In this document: in pieces, positions 11,402-43,847 of the stretch
How positions within the stretch are numbered: position 1 is the stretch's first letter
How the letters are laid out: each line of letters begins with the position of its first letter
Origin: Candidatus Rokubacteria bacterium 13_1_40CM_68_15
GTDB taxonomy: Bacteria > Methylomirabilota > Methylomirabilia > Rokubacteriales > CSP1-6
Direction of reading: 5' to 3'
Assembly (NCBI GenBank): GCA_001917585.1
Contig: MNEG01000130.1
Location: 1-43,847, forward strand
Length of the DNA stretch: 43,847 nucleotides
Position numbers and translations under genes: made by a program
Notes under the pieces: generated by a model
The model's input: only the letters and a program-made list of their open reading frames with translations
Database searches by the model: none
What the model was told of the DNA's origin: nothing

Positions 11402-12601
11402 ATGAAAATCTGTTTCTTCCACCTCATGCCGTACCGGTTCCTGCCCGACGACTTCGAAGCGCGCTACCGCTCGGTATGGGTGGACGTCCCGCATAGCCTC
11501 TACGATCCCGAGAAGACCAGTCAGCTCTACCACGAGTTCCTCGACGAGCTGGAGTTCGCCGAGCAGGCCGGCTTCGACGGCCTCTGCGTCAACGAGCACC
11601 ACAACAACGCCTACGGCCTCATGCCGTCGCCCAACCTCATGGCCGCGACGCTGACACGCCGGACGTCGCGCGCTGCCATCATCGTGCTCGGCAACAGCCT
11701 GGCCGCTTACAACCCCCCGCTGCGCGTGGCCGAAGAGTTCGCCATGCTCGACGTGCTCAGCGCCGGCCGCCTGGTCGCCGGGTTTCCCGTGGGCACGTCG
11801 ATGGACATGAACTTCGCCTATGGGATCAATCCGGCCACGCTGCGCGAGCGTTACTACGAGGCCCACGACCTCGTCATGCAGGCCTGGACGCGGCCCGAGG
11901 TCTTCCCGTTCAACGGCAAGTACACGCAGCTCCGCTACGTGAACATCTGGCCCCAGCCGTTGCAGAAGCCGCATCCACCCGTGTGGATCCCGGGCGGGGG
12001 CAGCGTCGAGACGTGGGAGTGGACGGCGAAGCTCGATTACGTCTACTGCAATCTCTCGTACTACGGCTACAAGCGCGGCAAGGCGACGATGGACGGCTTC
12101 TGGAACGCGATCGGCGCGCTGGGCGCCGACGACAATCCCTATCGCGCGGGATTCCTCCAGCTCGTGTGCGTCGCTGACAGCGACGCCGAGGCGGAGCGCC
12201 TGTACTTCCCGCACGTGCACTACTTCTATCAGAAGTGCCTGAATGTCTGGGAAGGCTTCGCCGAGGCCCCCGGCTATCGCACGGTCAAGACGTTGCAGCT
12301 TGGCATCCAGCGCCAGGTAGGCGCGCAGGCCAAGCAGATCCGCCAGTCGTTGAACTGGGCGAAGTATTTGGACTCCGGCTACGTGATTGCTGGTGGCCCG
12401 GCGACCGTGCGACAGCAGCTCCTGGAGTGCATCAAGAGCCTGCGCGTCGGCCACCTCATGGTGCTGCTCCAGATCGGCAGCATGCCGAAGGACCTCACCC
12501 TGCACAACACGACGCTCTTCACGCGCGAGGTCATGCCGCACCTGCGTGACGTGTGGCCCGGCTACAAGGATCGGTGGTGGCCAGCGCAGTGCGAGCGGTG
12601 A
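11402..12601 (+). CDS. LLM class flavin-dependent oxidoreductase (luciferase-like monooxygenase)
   Basis: GFDGLCVNEHHNNAYGLMPSPNLMAATLTRRT...NSLAAYNPPLRVAEEFAMLDVLSAGRLVAGFPVG. Confidence 0.92.
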   Translation: MKICFFHLMPYRFLPDDFEARYRSVWVDVPHSLYDPEKTSQLYHEFLDELEFAEQAGFDGLCVNEHHNNAYGLMPSPNLMAATLTRRTSRAAIIVLGNSLAAYNPPLRVAEEFAMLDVLSAGRLVAGFPVGTSMDMNFAYGINPATLRERYYEAHDLVMQAWTRPEVFPFNGKYTQLRYVNIWPQPLQKPHPPVWIPGGGSVETWEWTAKLDYVYCNLSYYGYKRGKATMDGFWNAIGALGADDNPYRAGFLQLVCVADSDAEAERLYFPHVHYFYQKCLNVWEGFAEAPGYRTVKTLQLGIQRQVGAQAKQIRQSLNWAKYLDSGYVIAGGPATVRQQLLECIKSLRVGHLMVLLQIGSMPKDLTLHNTTLFTREVMPHLRDVWPGYKDRWWPAQCER

Positions 12602-12602
12602 A

Positions 12603-13385
12603 ATGATCGAAGATACCCTCGTGGCCATTCGCGCGGGCGCCATCACGTTCCGCGTGCTGGGCGCCGGCCGGGGCGCGCCGCTCGTGTACTTCCACTCGAT
12701 CCACGAGCGCGGGGGCTGGTCGCCCTTCCTCGAGCGCCTGGCCCGGCGCTACACCGTGTACGCGCCGCTGCATCCGGGCGTCGGTGGCTCCACCGGCGTC
12801 GAGACGCTGGACGACGTGCTCGACCTCACGCTGGCCTACGACGAGCTGCTGACCGCGCTCGGGGTCGCGCGCGCTCATCTGTGCGGCCACTTCTTCGGCG
12901 GTATGGTGGCCGCCGAGCTGGCCGCCCTGTTCCCGGAGCGTGCCGCGCGTCTCGCGCTCGTATCGCCGCTGGGACTCTGGCGAGACGACGCGCCGTCGCA
13001 GGACATCCTGATCCTGCCTCCCGACGAGCTCGGTCCCGTTCTCTTCATGGACATGGCATCGGACGCGGCGCGCGCCTGGTCGGCGTTGCCCGACGACGAC
13101 GATGCGAACGTGGCGGCGCAGGTGGAGTCGATCGCGCGCCGGGCGGCGATCGCGAAGTTCGTCTGGCCCATTCCCGACAAGGGCCTGCGCAAGCGCCTGC
13201 ACCGGATCACGGCGCCCACGCTGATCCTGTGGGGCGAGAACGACCGCGCCAATCCCGTGGTCTACGCCGAGGAATGGCAGCGGCGCATCAAGGGCGCGGC
13301 GGTCAAGCTCGTGCCTAGCGGTCACATGCTGATTCACGAGACGCCCGACGCGGCGGCGCGGGCGGTGGAGGGGTTCCTGGGATGA
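12603..13385 (+). CDS. alpha/beta hydrolase fold protein (nucleophile elbow GHFFGG)
   Basis: LCGHFFGGMVAAELAALFPERAARLALVSP...TLILWGENDRANP...PSGHMLIHETP; starts 1 nt after the LLM stop. Confidence 0.88.
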   Translation: MIEDTLVAIRAGAITFRVLGAGRGAPLVYFHSIHERGGWSPFLERLARRYTVYAPLHPGVGGSTGVETLDDVLDLTLAYDELLTALGVARAHLCGHFFGGMVAAELAALFPERAARLALVSPLGLWRDDAPSQDILILPPDELGPVLFMDMASDAARAWSALPDDDDANVAAQVESIARRAAIAKFVWPIPDKGLRKRLHRITAPTLILWGENDRANPVVYAEEWQRRIKGAAVKLVPSGHMLIHETPDAAARAVEGFLG

Positions 13386-35569: not shown

Positions 35570-35605
35570 ACCGGTATCGGGTCCCGAGCGTCCTAGTGCG
35601 GCCGG

Positions 35606-35635
35606 ATCATAGGCTCCGCGAGGCCCAAGTGTCAA
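35606..35635 (-). promoter_or_regulatory. sigma70-type promoter for the DegP-like gene
   Basis: Minus strand TTGACA-N18-TATGAT, about 40 nt upstream of start at 35569. Confidence 0.7.
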
Positions 35636-35669
35636 GGAAAGTATTGCAAAAATGTGCATTTTTCTTGAC
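35631..35669. promoter_or_regulatory. palindromic operator candidate between divergent genes
   Basis: GTCAAG...CTTGAC outer arms, inner AAAAATG-TG-CATTTTT. Confidence 0.5.
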
Positions 35670-35700
35670 GGTCTCTCGACGAAAAAGCGAAAATGACATA

Positions 35701-37341
35701 TTGTTCGACGTAGCCTGCCGTCATAAAAGGCACAGTTCTTTCCGGGACACGCTTTGCGTCGTCCTCATCATCTGCCTCGTCACTCCGTCGTTGGCCGCTG
35801 CTCAGCCCGGGACCGCCCAGGAGCCCCGGGCCCCCGCGATCCCATCCAGTCAGCCGTCGCCGGCTCTCGCGACCCCCTCGGATAGCCCCGTCAGGACGCC
35901 CGGTGGGCCGACCGTCCGCCCCGACCCCTGCTTTCAGGGGGGGTCTGGCACGGGCATCGGCCGCATCGTCTCTGGTCCAGACTATCGAGTTGGTCCGGGT
36001 GACGTGGTGGAAGTGCAATTCGTCGGGCGCCTCGACGTCACCCGGCAGCAGCTCGTGGTCGACCCCGAGGGCATGATCAGCATCCCGCCGATCGGGACCG
36101 TGAAGGTCGGCGGTCTCACCCTTCGCGAAGCGAACCGACGCGTCGCGGATCAGGCGCGCCAGCTCTTCCGCTTCGGTGAGATCACGCTGACGGTCGCGAC
36201 GGCTCGCTGCTTCGAGATCGTTCTGTCCGGCGAGATCGAGCGGCCCGGCGCCATCCAGGCCTCGGCCGTTCGCCGGGTCCACGAGGTCATCCTCGCCGTC
36301 GGCGGCATCACGCCGCGCGGCAGCCTGCGTCGCGTCGAGGTCACGCGCGGCCGGTCGACGGTCGAGATCGATCTCCTCCGCTTCGAGATGCGCGGCGACC
36401 TCTCTCAGAATCCGTTCGTCGAGGAGGGCATGGCGATCCACGTGCCGCCGCGCGGCCCGTTCGTCACGCTGGCCGGCGCCGTGCGTCGGCCGGGTGACTA
36501 CGAGATCGGCCCACGGTCGTCACTCCGGGACCTCCTCGACGTGACCGGAGGCCTCGCCCAGAACTCGGCGCCGACCGAGGCGCGGCTGACGCGGCTTCTC
36601 CCCGACGGCCGCAAGGAAACGATCACGGTGGACCTGACCCGGGCGCTCGCGCGTCCGGCCGACGTACCGCTGGCCACGGGTGACCAGCTATTCGTGCCGT
36701 CGCTGACGCTGCTGCAGGACGTGGTCGAGGTGCGCGGCGCCTTCAACGGGACGGCCGAGAGCAGTCGAACGATGACGGCCGGCAAGCCGACGATCGTCCA
36801 GCGCTTCGAGCTGGCGCACGGTGATCGTGTGAAGGACCTGGTGGCTCGCGCCGGTGGTGTCGCCGCCTTTGCCGACCTCCGTCTCGCTGCCATCGACCGC
36901 GCGGGCGACGGCGGACCGCGCCAGCGGATCCCGGTCGATCTGCATCGCCTGCTCGTCGAAAAGGACGAGACCCAGAACATCATGCTCGAGAACGGCGACG
37001 TGTTCACGGTGCCGGTGGCCGAGGACAAGGTGTACGTCCTCGGTGAAGTGCGGACGCCGGGCGCGGTCGATTTCCGTCCCGACCTGACGGCCCGCGAGTA
37101 CGTGGCGATCGCCGGCGGGCCGACCGTGCGGGCACGGTTCCAGAACGCGACCGTCACGCTCCCCAATGGCCGCTCCTATCTCATGGCCGAGGCGCCGCCG
37201 CTCGAGGCCGGCGCGGTGGTGACCGTGCCGGAAGTGGCCGTACGCTGGTACCAGGACTACCTCACGATTGCCTCGGCTCTCGCGGGCCTCGTCACCGCCT
37301 ACACGGGGCTCTACTTCATCTTCAACACGAATCGTCGCTGA
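35701..37341 (+). CDS. polysaccharide export protein (Wza-like, poly_export + SLBB repeats)
   Basis: YRVGPGDVVEVQFVGRLDVTRQQLVVDPEGMISIPPIGTVKVGGLTLREA...VTLAGAVRRPGDYEI...VYVLGEVRTPGAVDFRP. Start uncertain: TTG 35701 or upstream ATG 35596. Confidence 0.88.
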   Translation: MFDVACRHKRHSSFRDTLCVVLIICLVTPSLAAAQPGTAQEPRAPAIPSSQPSPALATPSDSPVRTPGGPTVRPDPCFQGGSGTGIGRIVSGPDYRVGPGDVVEVQFVGRLDVTRQQLVVDPEGMISIPPIGTVKVGGLTLREANRRVADQARQLFRFGEITLTVATARCFEIVLSGEIERPGAIQASAVRRVHEVILAVGGITPRGSLRRVEVTRGRSTVEIDLLRFEMRGDLSQNPFVEEGMAIHVPPRGPFVTLAGAVRRPGDYEIGPRSSLRDLLDVTGGLAQNSAPTEARLTRLLPDGRKETITVDLTRALARPADVPLATGDQLFVPSLTLLQDVVEVRGAFNGTAESSRTMTAGKPTIVQRFELAHGDRVKDLVARAGGVAAFADLRLAAIDRAGDGGPRQRIPVDLHRLLVEKDETQNIMLENGDVFTVPVAEDKVYVLGEVRTPGAVDFRPDLTAREYVAIAGGPTVRARFQNATVTLPNGRSYLMAEAPPLEAGAVVTVPEVAVRWYQDYLTIASALAGLVTAYTGLYFIFNTNRR

Positions 37342-37345
37342 CGCC

Positions 37346-38155
37346 ATGTACGAAACGTACTGGGGCCTCAAGGAGCAACCGTTCGACAACTCGCCGAACC
37401 CGAAGTTCTTCTATCTGTCGCCCGAGCACGAGGAGGCCCTCGTCCGTCTCATGTACGCCGTTCGCCAGCGCAAGGGCTGCGCGCTGCTGACCGGCGAGTA
37501 CGGATGCGGCAAGACGACGCTCTCGCGCGCGCTCATCCAGCGGGTGGAAGCCGAGCGATACGAGATCGCGCTGCTGACCAATCCGAGCTGGACGGCGGCG
37601 AGCGACTTTCTGCGGGAGGTGCTCTATCAGCTCGGCATCGAGTCGCAGGGCACGACGAAGACCGACCTCCTGCATCAGCTCAACGACGTTTTCTATCGCA
37701 ACTTCCAGGCCGGGCGCGACACCGTCATCATCGTGGACGAAGCACAGCTCATCGACGACGACGCCATCTTCGAGGACCTGCGTCTGCTCCTGAACTTCCA
37801 GACCGACGACCGGTTCCTCGTGACGCTGTTGCTGATCGGCTCGCCCGAGCTGGCCGCGAAGGTCCGGCGGCTCAAGCACCTCGACCAGCGGATCGCCATC
37901 CGCTATCACCTCAACACGCTCGACGACGCCCACACCTCCGCCTACATCGCCCACCGCCTGCAGATGGCCGGTCAGTCGAAGCGAATCTTCACCGAGGCCG
38001 CGGTGAAGCTCACCTTCGACTTCACGCGGGGCACGCCGCGCGAGATCAACAACATCTGCGACATCTCCCTGCTCGTCGGCTACGCCAAGAAGGCCCAGGC
38101 CATCGACGAACGGATTATCGCCGAGGTGATCAAGGACAAGGTGGGCACGGGGTGA
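37346..38155 (+). CDS. ExeA-like AAA ATPase
   Basis: MYETYWGLKEQPFDNSPNPKFFYLSPEHEEAL...LTGEYGCGKTTLSR (Walker A)...VIIVDEAQLI (Walker B). Confidence 0.92.
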   Translation: MYETYWGLKEQPFDNSPNPKFFYLSPEHEEALVRLMYAVRQRKGCALLTGEYGCGKTTLSRALIQRVEAERYEIALLTNPSWTAASDFLREVLYQLGIESQGTTKTDLLHQLNDVFYRNFQAGRDTVIIVDEAQLIDDDAIFEDLRLLLNFQTDDRFLVTLLLIGSPELAAKVRRLKHLDQRIAIRYHLNTLDDAHTSAYIAHRLQMAGQSKRIFTEAAVKLTFDFTRGTPREINNICDISLLVGYAKKAQAIDERIIAEVIKDKVGTG

Positions 38156-39264
38156 TGGTGCGCATGAGCGACCTGGTCCGCGGCGCCAAGCCACCGGCGC
38201 CGGCACCGGCACCGGCCGCGGCGGCGCCCGCACCTTCGCCCGCCCCCCGCGCGCCGTCGACGCCGGCCGCCGAAGAGACTGCGCCGCCGGAGTCGCCCGC
38301 GCCCGTCCGTCTGGCACCGCGGGCCATCGTTCGTCCAGTGGCGGCGCACGTGGAAGCGCCGGCGACCTCGGCCGAGACGCCGACCGACGCGATCGCCCTC
38401 TTCGACGAGTTGCAGAGCGTGCTGGAGGCGGTGCGCGACCGCACGCGCGCGTCCCAGCCCCCGTCGTGGGAGGCGCTGACTCACCTCGTCGGTCGCGTGG
38501 TGGATTCGCTGGCCGCCTCCGGGGAGCTCTTCTGGGCGGCCAACGCGCCGACCGTGCCGGCCGGCCACGACTATCTCGCGTTTCACCAGGCGTGCGTCGC
38601 CGTCCTGGCTGTCCGCCTCGGCGCCAACATCGGATATGACCGGCCGCATCTCGTCGAGCTGGGCCTCGCCGGTTGCCTGATCGACGTGGGACTGTGGCAG
38701 GTCCCCGCGGAAAGGTTGCGCCGGCTCGACACGTTGAGTGGCGACGAGCTGGCTCAATATCGCGCGCATCCCCGGCTCGGCGCGGAGATCGTCCGCGGCT
38801 CGGCGCCGCCCTTCGAGGGGCTGGTGGACGCGGTGCTGCAACACCACGAGCGCGAGCAGGGACAGGGCTTCCCCCAGGGACTGCCGGGAGCGAGCGTGCA
38901 TCCGCACGCGAAGATCCTGGGCCTCGTCGACACCTACACGGGGCTGACGGCGCCGCCCTCGTTGCGCCCAGGACTGCGGCCGCACGAGGCCCTGCGCGAG
39001 ATCGTGCGCTCGAAGAACGAATCGTTTCCGACGGCGCTCATCAAGGCGCTGCTCAGCGAGATCTCGGTCTTCCCGCCCGGCACGGTCGTGCGGCTGAACA
39101 CCGGCGAAGTCGGACGGGTGATCGCGGTGAACCGAAATCATCCTCTGCGTCCGCGGGTCGAGGTGTACGATGCCAAAGGGCAGCGCCTGGCGACACCCAA
39201 GATGATCGATCTCTCGGAGGCGCCGTTCCTGTACATCACCGGTCCCGTCTCGGAGGTGCGATGA
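38155..39264 (+). CDS. degenerate HD-GYP domain protein with Pro/Ala-rich N-term
   Basis: AGCLIDVGLWQVPAERL...LSGDELAQYRAHPRLGAEIV...VLQHHEREQGQGFPQGLPGASVHPHAKILGLVDTYTGLTAPPSLRPGL; TGATG overlap with ATPase. Confidence 0.8.
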   Translation: MVRMSDLVRGAKPPAPAPAPAAAAPAPSPAPRAPSTPAAEETAPPESPAPVRLAPRAIVRPVAAHVEAPATSAETPTDAIALFDELQSVLEAVRDRTRASQPPSWEALTHLVGRVVDSLAASGELFWAANAPTVPAGHDYLAFHQACVAVLAVRLGANIGYDRPHLVELGLAGCLIDVGLWQVPAERLRRLDTLSGDELAQYRAHPRLGAEIVRGSAPPFEGLVDAVLQHHEREQGQGFPQGLPGASVHPHAKILGLVDTYTGLTAPPSLRPGLRPHEALREIVRSKNESFPTALIKALLSEISVFPPGTVVRLNTGEVGRVIAVNRNHPLRPRVEVYDAKGQRLATPKMIDLSEAPFLYITGPVSEVR

Positions 39265-39283: not shown

Positions 39284-42200
39284 ATGGCGCAGTACGAGAT
39301 GAACCTGCGGGACTACTGGCTGATCATCCGCCGCCGCCGGTTCATCATCCTCACCTCCACCATTCTCGTCGCGCTCTTTAGCTTCTGGATCGCCCGTCAG
39401 AAAGTTCCGCTGTACGAGGCGACGGCCGCGGTCAAGTTCGAGCAGTCGACGGCGCTGTCCGGTCTGCTCGTCGAGGTGCTCTCCTACAACAGCGCCGATT
39501 CCATCGAGACGCAGGCGACCCTTCTCAAGAGCTACCCCATCCTCGAAGAGGTCGCCCGGCGCCTCGGCCGGCTGCCCGAGACGGCGCGCGGCGAGGCCGT
39601 GCAGGAGTCCAAGTCGTACATGGCCGCCCTCGACTCGATCGGCGGCAAGATCCGCACGAGCCGCGTGCCCAGTACCAGCATCCTCGAGGTGATTGCGACG
39701 TCTACCAATTCCCGCGAGGCGCGGGACCTCGCCAACACGGTGGCGGAGGCCTACCGCGACTACAACCGCTCCGTGCGCAACGGGCGCATCACCGAGGCAC
39801 GCAAGTTCATCGAGGCCCAGCTGAAGGAAGTCGAAGGCCGGGTGCGGCGTGCCGAGGAAGAGGTATGGGCCTTCCGCGAGGCCAACCGCATCATCTCCCC
39901 GGGCGCCGAGTCATCGGTCCTCCTGTCGCTCTTCACGCAGCTGCGCAGCGACATCGAGAAGACCCGCCAGCAGCGCACCGAGCTCGAGATGACCCAGGGC
40001 CGCCTCGCGCGCAACGACGGCGCCAGCGTCGCCGAGCGCGTCTTCGTGGACAGCGCCAACCCGGCGCTGCAGCGGTTGCAGGCGACGCAGGTCGAGCTGC
40101 TGCTCGAGCGCAACAATCTCGCGCTGGAAGTCACCGATCGCCACCCCCGCCTGCAGGCGCTCGACGACCGGCTGCGCGAGGTGCGCAGCGAGATGCGGCG
40201 CGAGGTCAACGCCCAGGTCAACCTGCTGCGCAGCCGCGAGGAGATCCTCAACCGCCAGATGGGCGAGCTCCTCCAGAAGAATCGCGAGGTGCCGTCCATC
40301 GAGCTGGGGTTGCAGCGGCTGCAGCGCGACGCCAAGGTCAACGACGACCTCCTCACGCTGCTCAAGACGAAGCACCAGGAAGCCCTGATCAAGGAGTCGG
40401 AGGGCATCGAGGAGGTCAGCATCGTCCGGCCGGCTACCGAGCCGGGCGCGCCCGTCGGCGGCGAGACGTTCAACACCGTGGTGGTCGGGGGGCTGGTCGG
40501 TCTGATGCTCGGTCTCGTGCTGGCCTTCGTGCAGGAGACGCTCGACACCTCCATCGGGACCATCGAGGACGTCGAGACGTATCTGCAGGTGCCGGTGCTC
40601 GGCATCGTCCCCCACATCGACGCCCGCGAGACGGTGCAGCGCCTGATCGAGCGGCGACCGGCGCTGGCCGACATGGAGCCCGAAGCGCTCCAGAGCCACG
40701 CGCTGCTCATCACGCACTTCGATCCCAAGTCTCCGGTGGCCGAGGCGTATCGCACGCTGCGCACGAACATCCAGTTCATGCGCATAGAGCGCCAGGGCAA
40801 GGTGCTCGTCGTGACGAGCCCCACGCTGCAGGAAGGCAAGACGACGACCATCGTGAACCTCGCGCTCACGATGGCGCAGAACGGTCAGCGCACGCTGCTC
40901 ATCGGCGCCAACCTCCGGCGTCCGAGCATCCACCGGTTCTTCGGGATCGAGCGCGAGCCCGGGCTGGCCGACGTTCTCGTCAGTAACGCGCGCTGGCGTG
41001 ACTGCATCCGCACCGTCGCCGACATCCTGATGGGCCGGTTCGAGATGGAAGACATCATGGCGTCGCCGGGCCTCGACAACCTGCACATCCTCGAGTCCGG
41101 TCCCATCCCGGCCAACCCGTCGGAGCTGCTGTCGACGCCCGCCATGGCCCAGTTCCTCAGTGAGGTGCGCGAGGAGTACGACGTCGTCCTCATCGACACG
41201 CCGCCCGTGCTGCCCGTCACCGACTCCGCGATCGTCGCCGCCCAGGTCGACGGCGTGATCCTCGTCTACCAGGCGGGCAAGGTCGGCCGCCTCGTGCTCA
41301 AGCGGGCCAAGGCGCACCTGGAATCGGCCCGCGCGAAGGTGTGGGGCGTCGTCCTCAACGACGTGCAGACCGAGATCGCCGGCTACGCCTACACGCACTA
41401 CTACACCCACTATTACGGCGAGGAGACGCCGGGCGACACGACGCCCAGCCGCCTCGAGCGTGTCTGGAATACCGTGCGGAGCCGCTTCCGCGGTGACAAT
41501 CGCTCGTCCACCGGGCCCACCGTGCCGATGGATCAGGTCGTCGACACCATCGACGCGCCGGTGGCGACCGAGCCGAGAAGCCGCCGCAAGTACCGCAACG
41601 TCATCGGCGGCGTCATTCTGCTGATTGCCCTCGCCGCCTTGATGTCGGTGCTGGCGTGGAAGGCCGGATGGTTCGGTGCGAGCCTGCAGCCGCGGGAGAT
41701 TCTCCGCAAGAAGCTCGACGCGCCGGCGGAGGTGGCGCCCGTCCGCGAGGCGACGGCCGCTCCGGCGGCGCCGACAGAACCGTCGCCCCCGCCCGTTCTC
41801 CCGGTCCCCGAGACATCGACGTCCCCGGCCTCGGCGCTCCCCGTGATGAGCGCGCCGGCACCCGCGATGTCCGCCCCGACGGTGACCACGCCGCCGAGCG
41901 CGGTCAAGTCGCTCAAGTCCAGCGCTACGGTGCCCACGCCAGCCGCGCCGCGTGCGGTGACGGCGACGCCGCCCGGCGAACGCTTCGCCGTCGAGTTCGG
42001 GCCGTTCCCCACGGCGGGCGAAGCCGAGAGCGTCGAGCGTCAGCTCATCCAGGCCGGTCATCAGACCGTCCGCTTCCGCCAGCAGACGGGCGGCGCGCTG
42101 TACGGGGTGCTGATCGAGCGCGTGCCCACGGCCCGCGACGCGCAGCAGATCGTCACCGCGCTGCGGGAGCAGGGTCTTCCCGAAGGCATGATCCTCGGTG

Positions 42201-42433
42201 GCGGCGAGCCGCTGACGGTGCGGATCGGTGATCCGCTGCCGTTGCACGGCGCCGTCCAGCTCGCCGAGCGTGTGCGCGGGCGGGGACATCAGGTCCGCGT
42301 CGCCGTGCAGGCCGGCGAGGCTGTCACGTTCGTCATCCGCCATGGCAACTTCGCCGCGCGGTCCGAGGCGGAGGAGAAGGCGGAGGAGTTGAGCCGACTG
42401 GGCCTACCGAACCGCGTCGTGCGGGTACGGTAG
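39284..42433 (+). CDS. Wzz chain-length determinant / BY-kinase / Tyr cluster / TM / SPOR-like fusion
   Basis: Wzz N-term with two TMs; kinase TSPTLQEGKTTTIVNLA, LLIGANLRRP, VVLIDTPPVLPVTDS; YAYTHYYTHYYG; third TM VIGGVILLIALAALMSVLAW; two SPOR-like C-terminal segments. Confidence 0.88.
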   Translation: MAQYEMNLRDYWLIIRRRRFIILTSTILVALFSFWIARQKVPLYEATAAVKFEQSTALSGLLVEVLSYNSADSIETQATLLKSYPILEEVARRLGRLPETARGEAVQESKSYMAALDSIGGKIRTSRVPSTSILEVIATSTNSREARDLANTVAEAYRDYNRSVRNGRITEARKFIEAQLKEVEGRVRRAEEEVWAFREANRIISPGAESSVLLSLFTQLRSDIEKTRQQRTELEMTQGRLARNDGASVAERVFVDSANPALQRLQATQVELLLERNNLALEVTDRHPRLQALDDRLREVRSEMRREVNAQVNLLRSREEILNRQMGELLQKNREVPSIELGLQRLQRDAKVNDDLLTLLKTKHQEALIKESEGIEEVSIVRPATEPGAPVGGETFNTVVVGGLVGLMLGLVLAFVQETLDTSIGTIEDVETYLQVPVLGIVPHIDARETVQRLIERRPALADMEPEALQSHALLITHFDPKSPVAEAYRTLRTNIQFMRIERQGKVLVVTSPTLQEGKTTTIVNLALTMAQNGQRTLLIGANLRRPSIHRFFGIEREPGLADVLVSNARWRDCIRTVADILMGRFEMEDIMASPGLDNLHILESGPIPANPSELLSTPAMAQFLSEVREEYDVVLIDTPPVLPVTDSAIVAAQVDGVILVYQAGKVGRLVLKRAKAHLESARAKVWGVVLNDVQTEIAGYAYTHYYTHYYGEETPGDTTPSRLERVWNTVRSRFRGDNRSSTGPTVPMDQVVDTIDAPVATEPRSRRKYRNVIGGVILLIALAALMSVLAWKAGWFGASLQPREILRKKLDAPAEVAPVREATAAPAAPTEPSPPPVLPVPETSTSPASALPVMSAPAPAMSAPTVTTPPSAVKSLKSSATVPTPAAPRAVTATPPGERFAVEFGPFPTAGEAESVERQLIQAGHQTVRFRQQTGGALYGVLIERVPTARDAQQIVTALREQGLPEGMILGGGEPLTVRIGDPLPLHGAVQLAERVRGRGHQVRVAVQAGEAVTFVIRHGNFAARSEAEEKAEELSRLGLPNRVVRVR

Positions 42434-42455: not shown

Positions 42456-43847
42456 ATGGCCAATCCGCTCCTGCGCGTCATCGTCTTGGGCGTGCTCCTG
42501 GTGGTGGCCACGTTCCTGGTCTCACAGGGGATCACGGTCACCCGTTTCGAGTACGCCATCGGCGCGGCCTGCGTGCTGGCCGTGTTCATGTTCGTCTTCA
42601 TCAAGACCGAGGCTGGGCTCTATCTGGTGCTCTTCTCGATGCTGCTGTCTCCCGAGTTTGCGCTGGGCGGCGGCGGGCTGGCCGAGCGGCGCACCGTCGT
42701 CGTGCGCCTCGAAGACCTCCTGCTCATCGCGATCGGGTTGAGCTGGTTCGCGAAGACCGCCGTGAACAAGGAGATCGGCCTCGTCGTCAAGACCCCGCTC
42801 AATCTGTGGATCCTCTTCTATGTCCTCAGCGCGTTCCTGTCGACCGCCCTCGGCTACCTTCAGAACACGGTCAAGAGCGCCATCGGCTTCATGTACGTGC
42901 TCAAGTACGTCGAATACTTCGTCGTCTACTACATGACCGTCAACCACGTCCGCGACCGCGCGCAGGCCCGGCGCCTGATCATGGCGGCGTTCGTGACCGC
43001 GGCGATCGTGAGCGTCATCGGCGCCGCCCAGATCCCGAGCGGCCAGCGGGTGTCGGCGCCCTTCGAGGGTGAGGCGGGCGAGCCGAACACGTTCGGCGGC
43101 TATCTGTTGCTGATGATGGCCATCGCCGCCGGCATCGGTCTGGAGACGAACCGTCTGAAGCTTCGCGCGTGGGCGGCTGCTCTGGTCGGGCTCATGGCGG
43201 TTCCCTTCGTTTTCACGCTCTCGCGGGCGTCGTATCTGGCGCTGTTGCCGGCGATCGGCACCCTGGCCCTGCTGTCGAGCCGTCGGAAGCTGATGGTCGG
43301 TGCCCTGGCCCTGCTGGTGCTCGTGTCGCCGGTCGTCATCACGACGGCCGTGCCGGAGCCCGTCAAGAAGCGCATCCTTTATACATTCCAGCCCGAGCGT
43401 GGCCAGGCCACGGTGCGGTTCGGCCAGATCGCGTTCGACCCGTCCACGTCCGAGCGCCTGCTCTCGATGCAGGAGGCGTTCGCGGCGTGGACCAGGCGTC
43501 CGCTGTTCGGTTACGGTGTCACCGGCTTTCGGTTCATCGACGCGCAATACTCACGCACGCTCGTCGAGACCGGCGTGGTCGGGTTGGCGGTGTTCCTCGC
43601 GCTGCTGTGGGCGGTGTTCCGGGTCGGGGTCGCCTCAGCGCGGCGCCTCGATGACCCGGAAGACCGGGGCGTGGCGTTCGGTTTCGTGGCCGCCACGGTC
43701 GGGCTTCTCGTGCATTCGATCGGGTCCAACTCGTTCATCATCATCCGCATCATGGAACCGTTCTGGTTCTTCGCCGGGATCGTCGCCATTCTTCCCACGC
43801 TGCCGAAGGAGGCGGAGGCTCCGGCGCCGCGTCCGGTCCGCGCGTTC
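42456..43847 (+). CDS. O-antigen ligase/polymerase (Wzy_C)-like membrane protein, 3' truncated by window end
   Basis: Manual translation from ATG 42456: 464 codons without stop; MANPLLRVIVLGVLLVVATFLV...FTLSRASYLALLPAIGTLALL...GYGVTGFRFIDAQYSRTLVETGVVGLAVFLALLW. Confidence 0.85.
   Translation, partial: MANPLLRVIVLGVLLVVATFLVSQGITVTRFEYAIGAACVLAVFMFVFIKTEAGLYLVLFSMLLSPEFALGGGGLAERRTVVVRLEDLLLIAIGLSWFAKTAVNKEIGLVVKTPLNLWILFYVLSAFLSTALGYLQNTVKSAIGFMYVLKYVEYFVVYYMTVNHVRDRAQARRLIMAAFVTAAIVSVIGAAQIPSGQRVSAPFEGEAGEPNTFGGYLLLMMAIAAGIGLETNRLKLRAWAAALVGLMAVPFVFTLSRASYLALLPAIGTLALLSSRRKLMVGALALLVLVSPVVITTAVPEPVKKRILYTFQPERGQATVRFGQIAFDPSTSERLLSMQEAFAAWTRRPLFGYGVTGFRFIDAQYSRTLVETGVVGLAVFLALLWAVFRVGVASARRLDDPEDRGVAFGFVAATVGLLVHSIGSNSFIIIRIMEPFWFFAGIVAILPTLPKEAEAPAPRPVRAF

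Follow-up and report, generated by a model that had tools for sequence, protein, structure and literature searches.

We found a polysaccharide co-polymerase of the Wzc/PCP-2a type that continues past its tyrosine cluster into a third transmembrane segment (TM3), a linker and two SPOR modules, all in one chain. It is encoded in a 43,847 nt stretch of DNA (the window) from Candidatus Rokubacteria bacterium 13_1_40CM_68_15 (assembly GCA_001917585.1, contig MNEG01000130.1); Rokubacteria are a group from soil and groundwater. The gene lies on the forward strand at 39284–42433, where one frame is open without interruption and codes for 1049 aa. Canonical bacterial tyrosine kinases (BY-kinases) end at the tyrosine cluster, a contrast that the original prediction for this gene had drawn and that held up. 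How diderm bacteria coordinate the export of envelope polysaccharide with wall growth and division is an open question. Judging from its domains, this fusion could form a physical link between polysaccharide export and either the cell wall or the site of division, and because co-polymerase and SPOR-type domains share one chain, such a coupling is directly testable.

The single chain with Wzz transmembrane segments, a kinase domain and a tyrosine cluster had been predicted from the DNA alone, and Pfam and NCBIfam matches confirmed it. A Wzz domain occupies residues 5–93 (39296–39562; PF02706, 34.0 bits, above cut-off) and includes the first hydrophobic segment (TM1, residues 19–37). A GNVR domain follows at residues 345–418 (40316–40537; PF13807, 36.9 bits, above cut-off) and includes TM2 (398–416). 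The BY-kinase-like domain together with the tyrosine cluster spans residues 470–718 (40691–41437), with a match to the tyrosine autokinase model TIGR01007 (182 bits) and to AAA_31 at residues 518–664 (45.6 bits), both above cut-off; the PDB profile matches of this domain are CapAB, BceF, Etk and Wzc. Its tyrosine cluster, YAYTHYYTHYYGEE, begins at 41384 as predicted and extends to 41425 (residues 701–714). Foldseek with the full-length AlphaFold2 (AF2) model gave subunits of the Wzc octamer (9r64, E 1.8e-28) and CapAB kinases as the best PDB matches. The protein therefore has what we look for in a PCP-2a (Wzc-like) co-polymerase: Wzz and GNVR with two transmembrane segments, a fused P-loop kinase-like domain, and linkage to OPX and Wzy genes.

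We searched for relatives with short exact peptide patterns, using one genome per species. The scan returned 36 loci, nearly all from Candidatus Rokubacteria, and TM3, the linker and both SPOR modules are present in every one of the 30 orthologues with a complete C-terminus. Some loci had a tblastn match that ended before residue 1049. We considered a different architecture for these and rejected it: the ones with a complete C-terminus do have the SPOR part, and L028, L031, L035, L037 and L042 run off the contig. Locus L036 was left out of the alignments, since it reads as a truncated open reading frame of 210 aa from its start. In an even sample of 60 genomes from the phylum, the orthologous kinase was present in 26 of the 35 genomes of the same family (once as a fragment), and the remaining same-family genomes had other BY-kinases or none.

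TM3 was assessed by hydropathy and charge bias. Exactly three peaks in the protein reach 1.6 or more (residues 19–37, 398–416 and 773–791), and the third is the strongest (2.77) and is conserved in 33 orthologues. It falls at 41600–41656, very close to where it had been placed (about 41600–41660), and AF2 models a helix there (771–793). Summed over the 33 orthologues, there are 147 Lys/Arg on the N-terminal side of TM3 versus 71 on the C-terminal side. By the positive-inside rule TM3 is therefore predicted to run N-in/C-out and to leave the C-terminus in the periplasm, in agreement with the original prediction. Three membrane crossings would put the kinase-like domain and tyrosine cluster in the cytoplasm and the SPOR pair in the periplasm. 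The cluster is followed by about 60 residues and then TM3, so that it sits between two membrane anchors and not at a free C-terminus. After TM3 comes the Pro/Ala-rich linker that had been noted earlier (residues 796–893, 41669–41962), which AF2 gives with low confidence as disordered (about 795–896) ahead of both SPOR modules. The distance from TM3 to SPOR is variable, 72–240 aa over 27 orthologues.

The predicted SPOR similarity of the C-terminus, with a second and weaker half, was borne out. SPOR module 1 (SPOR1) covers residues 898–970 (41975–42193), and PF05036 matches it at 898–965 with 34.8 bits in the whole protein, where the cut-off is 21; the 30 orthologous segments are all matched as well. 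By itself, SPOR module 2 (SPOR2), residues 977–1049 (42212–42430), reaches 19.1 bits in the window protein, slightly short of the cut-off; of the 31 orthologous segments, 30 gave a SPOR match (best 4.6e-8). The AF2 model of the C-terminal 155 residues shows two β-α-β-β-α-β modules with a predicted local distance difference test (pLDDT) score of 91.9. The nearest solved structures to SPOR1 are CwlC (1x60) and FtsN (1uta). Foldseek lists the CwlC SPOR among its matches (probability 0.82, E 0.12), and because matches to a ferredoxin-like fold are unspecific, the identification as SPOR rests on sequence. SPOR2 alone found nothing meaningful in the PDB, and the FtsN model TIGR02223 scored 14.1, far under its cut-off of 107.65. 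Against the same-genus orthologue L007, the ratio of nonsynonymous to synonymous substitution rates (dN/dS) is 0.04 for the co-polymerase part, 0.08 for the kinase, 0.72 for the linker and 0.06 for each SPOR module. The SPOR modules are under purifying selection and the linker hardly is.

The kinase had been taken as canonical, and here we came to a different conclusion. Walker A (SPTLQEGKTTT, residues 512–522, 40817–40849) and Walker B (VVLIDTPP, residues 634–641, 41183–41206) are kept, and the Walker A lysine (Lys519), the Walker B aspartate (Asp638) and the arginine of Walker A' are invariant in 34/34 orthologues. Walker A' itself (LLIGANLRRP, residues 538–547, 40895–40924) is degenerate, with GxN for the canonical DxD. 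All 34 orthologues covering the motif follow the consensus LL[IVL]GxN[LM]RRP: residue 541 is Gly in 33 and Asn in one (NxN), and residue 543 is always Asn. A canonical paralogue in the same genome reads VDADMRRP at this position. DxD is also what most of the canonical BY-kinases in these genomes have, and a sister subfamily has ExD.

In BY-kinases, Walker A' recognises the tyrosine, touches the nucleotide phosphate and starts phosphorylation (PMC12004946), and in EpsB of B. subtilis a DxD double mutation has been made in the active centre (PMC3973450). Because both Walker A' aspartates are replaced, we infer that autophosphorylation is impaired or absent. The domain has the lysine, the Walker B aspartate and the tyrosine cluster of an active BY-kinase and lacks the DxD, and it differs from an EcpK-type pseudokinase, in which all Walker motifs and the tyrosine tail are lost. 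Loss of Walker A' with the tyrosine cluster retained is unusual, intermediate between active BY-kinases and full pseudokinases like EcpK. The kept cluster may be trans-phosphorylated by another BY-kinase of the genome, or it may dock into a neighbouring subunit free of phosphorylation. There was no cognate phosphatase among the window genes examined; low-molecular-weight protein tyrosine phosphatase genes sit on other contigs. The degenerate Walker A' and the altered glycan site of SPOR1 (below) are points that go beyond the original prediction.

From the sequence features together, we read the protein as a three-TM co-polymerase that may be tethered to the wall by a periplasmic SPOR pair and whose kinase-like domain may be mainly a nucleotide-dependent scaffold, and we regard this as about evenly balanced between right and wrong. 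The fusion protein would be the co-polymerase and chain-length regulator of a Wzx/Wzy-type exopolysaccharide exporter. Its SPOR pair, at the end of a periplasmic tether of roughly 70–240 residues, would tie the exporter to the peptidoglycan layer, the septum or envelope partners. The most plausible tether site would be amidase-stripped glycan strands at the division septum, and polysaccharide secretion might in this way be kept in step with the growth of the wall. With neither Walker A' aspartate left, the kinase domain would probably bind nucleotide without efficient autophosphorylation and could be a scaffold for octamer assembly that depends on nucleotide. The conserved tyrosine cluster may then dock into the neighbouring subunit or be phosphorylated by another kinase. 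In favour of this reading we count the domains and predicted topology, the Wzc match of the full-length model, the recurrence of the architecture and its gene neighbours, the contrast between constrained SPOR modules and a free linker, the loss of Walker A' beside intact Walker A and B, and, as described below, sister relatives with an intact glycan site and a similar stand-alone SPOR protein in the same genome. Septal capsule synthesis in S. pneumoniae (PMC4574921) and the pseudokinase co-polymerases of Myxococcus and Caulobacter (PMC12004946) serve as precedents.

Several observations weigh against this. The SPOR domain of RlpA contacts denuded glycan with Q270 and an Arg cluster; Q270 is its one highly conserved residue and corresponds to Gln251 in FtsN (PMC6895207). 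We assigned the glycan-site positions by HMMER alignment to CwlC and FtsN and found that residue 904 of SPOR1, the equivalent of the key Gln, is Glu in 31/31 orthologues, and that residue 941, the equivalent of RlpA Arg309 and FtsN R285, is Ala or Gly in 31/31. SPOR2 does not have the aromatic GxF position, and it has Arg or Gln at the key Gln site. The pairing of a conserved Gln with a basic patch, which marks a functional SPOR domain, is not found in the window's clade. In addition, the predicted template modelling score of the full-length AF2 model is low (0.35), the topology rests on prediction, and the THYYGE end of the tyrosine cluster is nearly invariant, which is odd for a dead kinase. 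The original prediction had proposed that the C-terminus binds peptidoglycan, and this is not established; because the key Gln and Arg of SPOR1 are replaced, such binding should not be assumed. The SPOR fold and its constraint are clear, and canonical peptidoglycan binding in this clade is, from the residues present, not assured.

These residues could mean that the modules are periplasmic and have lost recognition of denuded peptidoglycan, having been repurposed for the exported polysaccharide or for a partner such as OPX, as a docking arm. We consider this less likely than not. The glycan site is altered yet strongly constrained, other arginines are invariant (930 and 932 in SPOR1, 1019 in SPOR2), and the fusion gene adjoins OPX wherever the flank suffices. 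However, known SPOR binding is largely through main-chain contacts and a basic patch whose residues differ from protein to protein (PMC6895207), so the changes in SPOR1 do not disprove glycan binding, and the sister relatives retain the canonical residues. The kinase may be active after all: in such an atypical BY-kinase, other residues would stand in for the aspartates of Walker A', the tyrosine cluster would go through its usual cycle of phosphorylation and dephosphorylation, and the SPOR tether would be an add-on. The invariant or nearly invariant Walker A Lys, Walker B Asp, Walker A' Arg and tyrosine cluster speak for this, and no other part that we measured is as conserved as the kinase domain (mean column identity of 87% over 32 orthologues). 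We think this, too, less likely than not, since both aspartates are absent from every orthologue, the motif contacts the nucleotide phosphate and starts phosphorylation (PMC12004946), DxD was mutated as the active centre in EpsB (PMC3973450), and the canonical paralogues that these genomes also encode still have it.

It is far less probable that residues 773–791 are not inserted in the membrane and that the SPOR modules are cytoplasmic protein-interaction domains. AF2 cannot place a membrane, and the topology is predicted; against that stand the top hydropathy peak, its conservation in 33 orthologues, the positive-inside bias, and a Pro-rich linker after the segment, as in proteins of the FtsN/DedD type. 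To our knowledge, other SPOR domains lie in the periplasm or outside the cell, which also counts against it. The fusion could in principle be an artefact, whether a missed stop, a misassembly or a chance reading frame joining two genes, as the data are metagenome-assembled genomes and locus L099 (below) is an example of a kinase frame that extends into the gene after it. We excluded this, leaving it a negligible chance, because the same fusion recurs in the same order and in one frame in dozens of separately assembled genomes and because the SPOR modules have a dN/dS of 0.06 against 0.72 for the linker.

With Wzc, Etk, VpsO and BceF the fusion protein shares the Wzz-GNVR body, two transmembrane segments, Walker A and B, the tyrosine cluster, and OPX/Wzy linkage. 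Those proteins end at the cluster and have DxD in Walker A', whereas here TM3, the linker and two SPOR modules are added and Walker A' reads GxN. Phosphorylation-independent co-polymerases with pseudokinases are described for Myxococcus (EcpK/EpsV) and Caulobacter (HfsB/HfsA) in PMC12004946, and they are similar in pairing a co-polymerase with a BY-kinase-like domain short of catalytic residues. EcpK and HfsB are stand-alone and have no tyrosine tail, EcpK also lacks all Walker motifs, and no SPOR domain is reported for them there; the fusion protein is a single chain that has lost Walker A' alone and has kept the tyrosine cluster. S. meliloti SMc01795, Mesorhizobium Mlr8439 and others do have a PCP-2 body and a pseudokinase in one chain, and the passages on them that we consulted in PMC12004946 do not mention a C-terminal TM-SPOR extension; we liken them by description.

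The C-terminal part resembles the bitopic SPOR proteins FtsN, DedD and DamX, which also have a transmembrane segment, a Pro-rich linker and a C-terminal SPOR domain. Those are separate division proteins, and here the SPOR part is attached to a polysaccharide co-polymerase. In S. pneumoniae, septal capsule synthesis is tied to a BY-kinase and the cell cycle through CpsC/CpsD, a co-polymerase/BY-kinase pairing at the division site (PMC4574921). CpsC/CpsD differ from the fusion protein in being localised through other contacts and in having an active kinase. We know of no SPOR domain in them. Of the outcomes named beforehand as refuting the original prediction, a lack of SPOR similarity and a lack of TM3 did not occur, and the third, an architecture both common and already described, applies by half. 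It is indeed common in Rokubacteria, but we found no published BY-kinase-SPOR fusion in a literature search that missed most subscription journals. Phyla beyond Methylomirabilota were scanned by the short exact patterns only. Because both searches were restricted, we limit the claim of novelty to a new form of the PCP-2a co-polymerase.

More distant relatives within Methylomirabilota (42–48% kinase identity) have graded architectures. L094 and L095 have TM3 and a tandem SPOR region, and L097 has TM3 and a single SPOR; in these three, SPOR is above the Pfam cut-off and the glycan-contacting Gln and Arg, as read from the sequence, are kept. L098 has TM3 and a short SPOR-like end without a Pfam match, L058/L106 have TM3 only, and L057 and L096 have neither. 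In a tree of the kinase domain the Rokubacteria version of the protein falls into one supported clade (100/98) and the distant relatives into another (99/99), and the tree needs three architecture changes. A single gain of TM3-SPOR followed by losses would fit the tree, and independent gains may also have occurred. Such a gradient within one phylum lends itself to reconstructing the gain or loss of the tether. A plasmid search with the kinase domain found only relatives below 60% identity. The ExD and GxN forms occur together in genome G044 (L098 at G044:C60 and L088 at G044:C159); these are therefore paralogues, or one form was transferred.

The window's own genome also has a stand-alone bitopic protein with a TM, a Pro-rich linker and tandem SPOR modules (L044, contig C30, complement, about 1096–2200). 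With hhalign, a profile of the fused tandem aligned to L044 over 134 columns (probability 91%, E 1e-6), with an LPLRxAV stretch in common; as single sequences the two were not significant by BLASTP (E 0.28). An origin by fusion with an L044-like protein is plausible from this comparison.

Four neighbouring genes in the window lie on the forward strand. Upstream are a Wza-like OPX polysaccharide export protein with SLBB repeats (35596–37341; Pfam Poly_export and SLBB, true start uncertain), an AAA ATPase of the XrtA/PEP-CTERM-associated type (37268–38155; TIGR03015, 240 bits, below the cut-off of 324.5) and an HD-GYP-like protein whose HD dyad is degenerate (38155–39264; Pfam HD_5, E 1e-22). 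Downstream is a Wzy_C polymerase/ligase that runs off the window (42516–43847; PF04932, E 4.5e-12). The OPX, ATPase, HD-GYP-like and Wzy genes are syntenic in orthologous loci. Where the flank is long enough, almost every Rokubacteria locus runs from HtrA (opposite strand) through OPX, the ATPase, the HD protein and the fusion gene to Wzy, and most of the distant relatives keep the order OPX, counterpart of the fusion gene, Wzy. In the HD-GYP-like neighbour, none of the 32 orthologues compared retains the His of HDxGK or the Lys after it, and nearly all still have the HHE...GxG[FY]P loop. It is probably a second non-catalytic signalling enzyme at the locus. A more elaborate proposal, which we hold to be rather improbable, is a third kind of co-polymerase: a PCP-2 with three TMs and a tether to the wall that would have given up covalent tyrosine phosphorylation, with the kinase as a nucleotide-binding scaffold, the HD-GYP-like neighbour as a non-catalytic (perhaps cyclic di-GMP-sensing) partner, and the SPOR tether positioning export relative to peptidoglycan growth.

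A few loci stood out during the analysis. L015 is an orthologue with 67% identity on a 3.3-kb contig that is filed as Chloroflexi and is probably a mis-binned Rokubacteria contig. At L099 (G030:C88), a canonical BY-kinase frame continues into an OPX protein that has a signal-like segment of its own. Its homologues L100 and L101 stop before the OPX part, so L099 is a real fusion or has a missing stop. In a co-polymerase gene on contig C115 of the window's own genome (L004/L005, about 12120–13280), the part 309–460 of our query matches twice, about 684 bases apart. The repeats look identical, which points to a tandem duplication or an assembly artefact.

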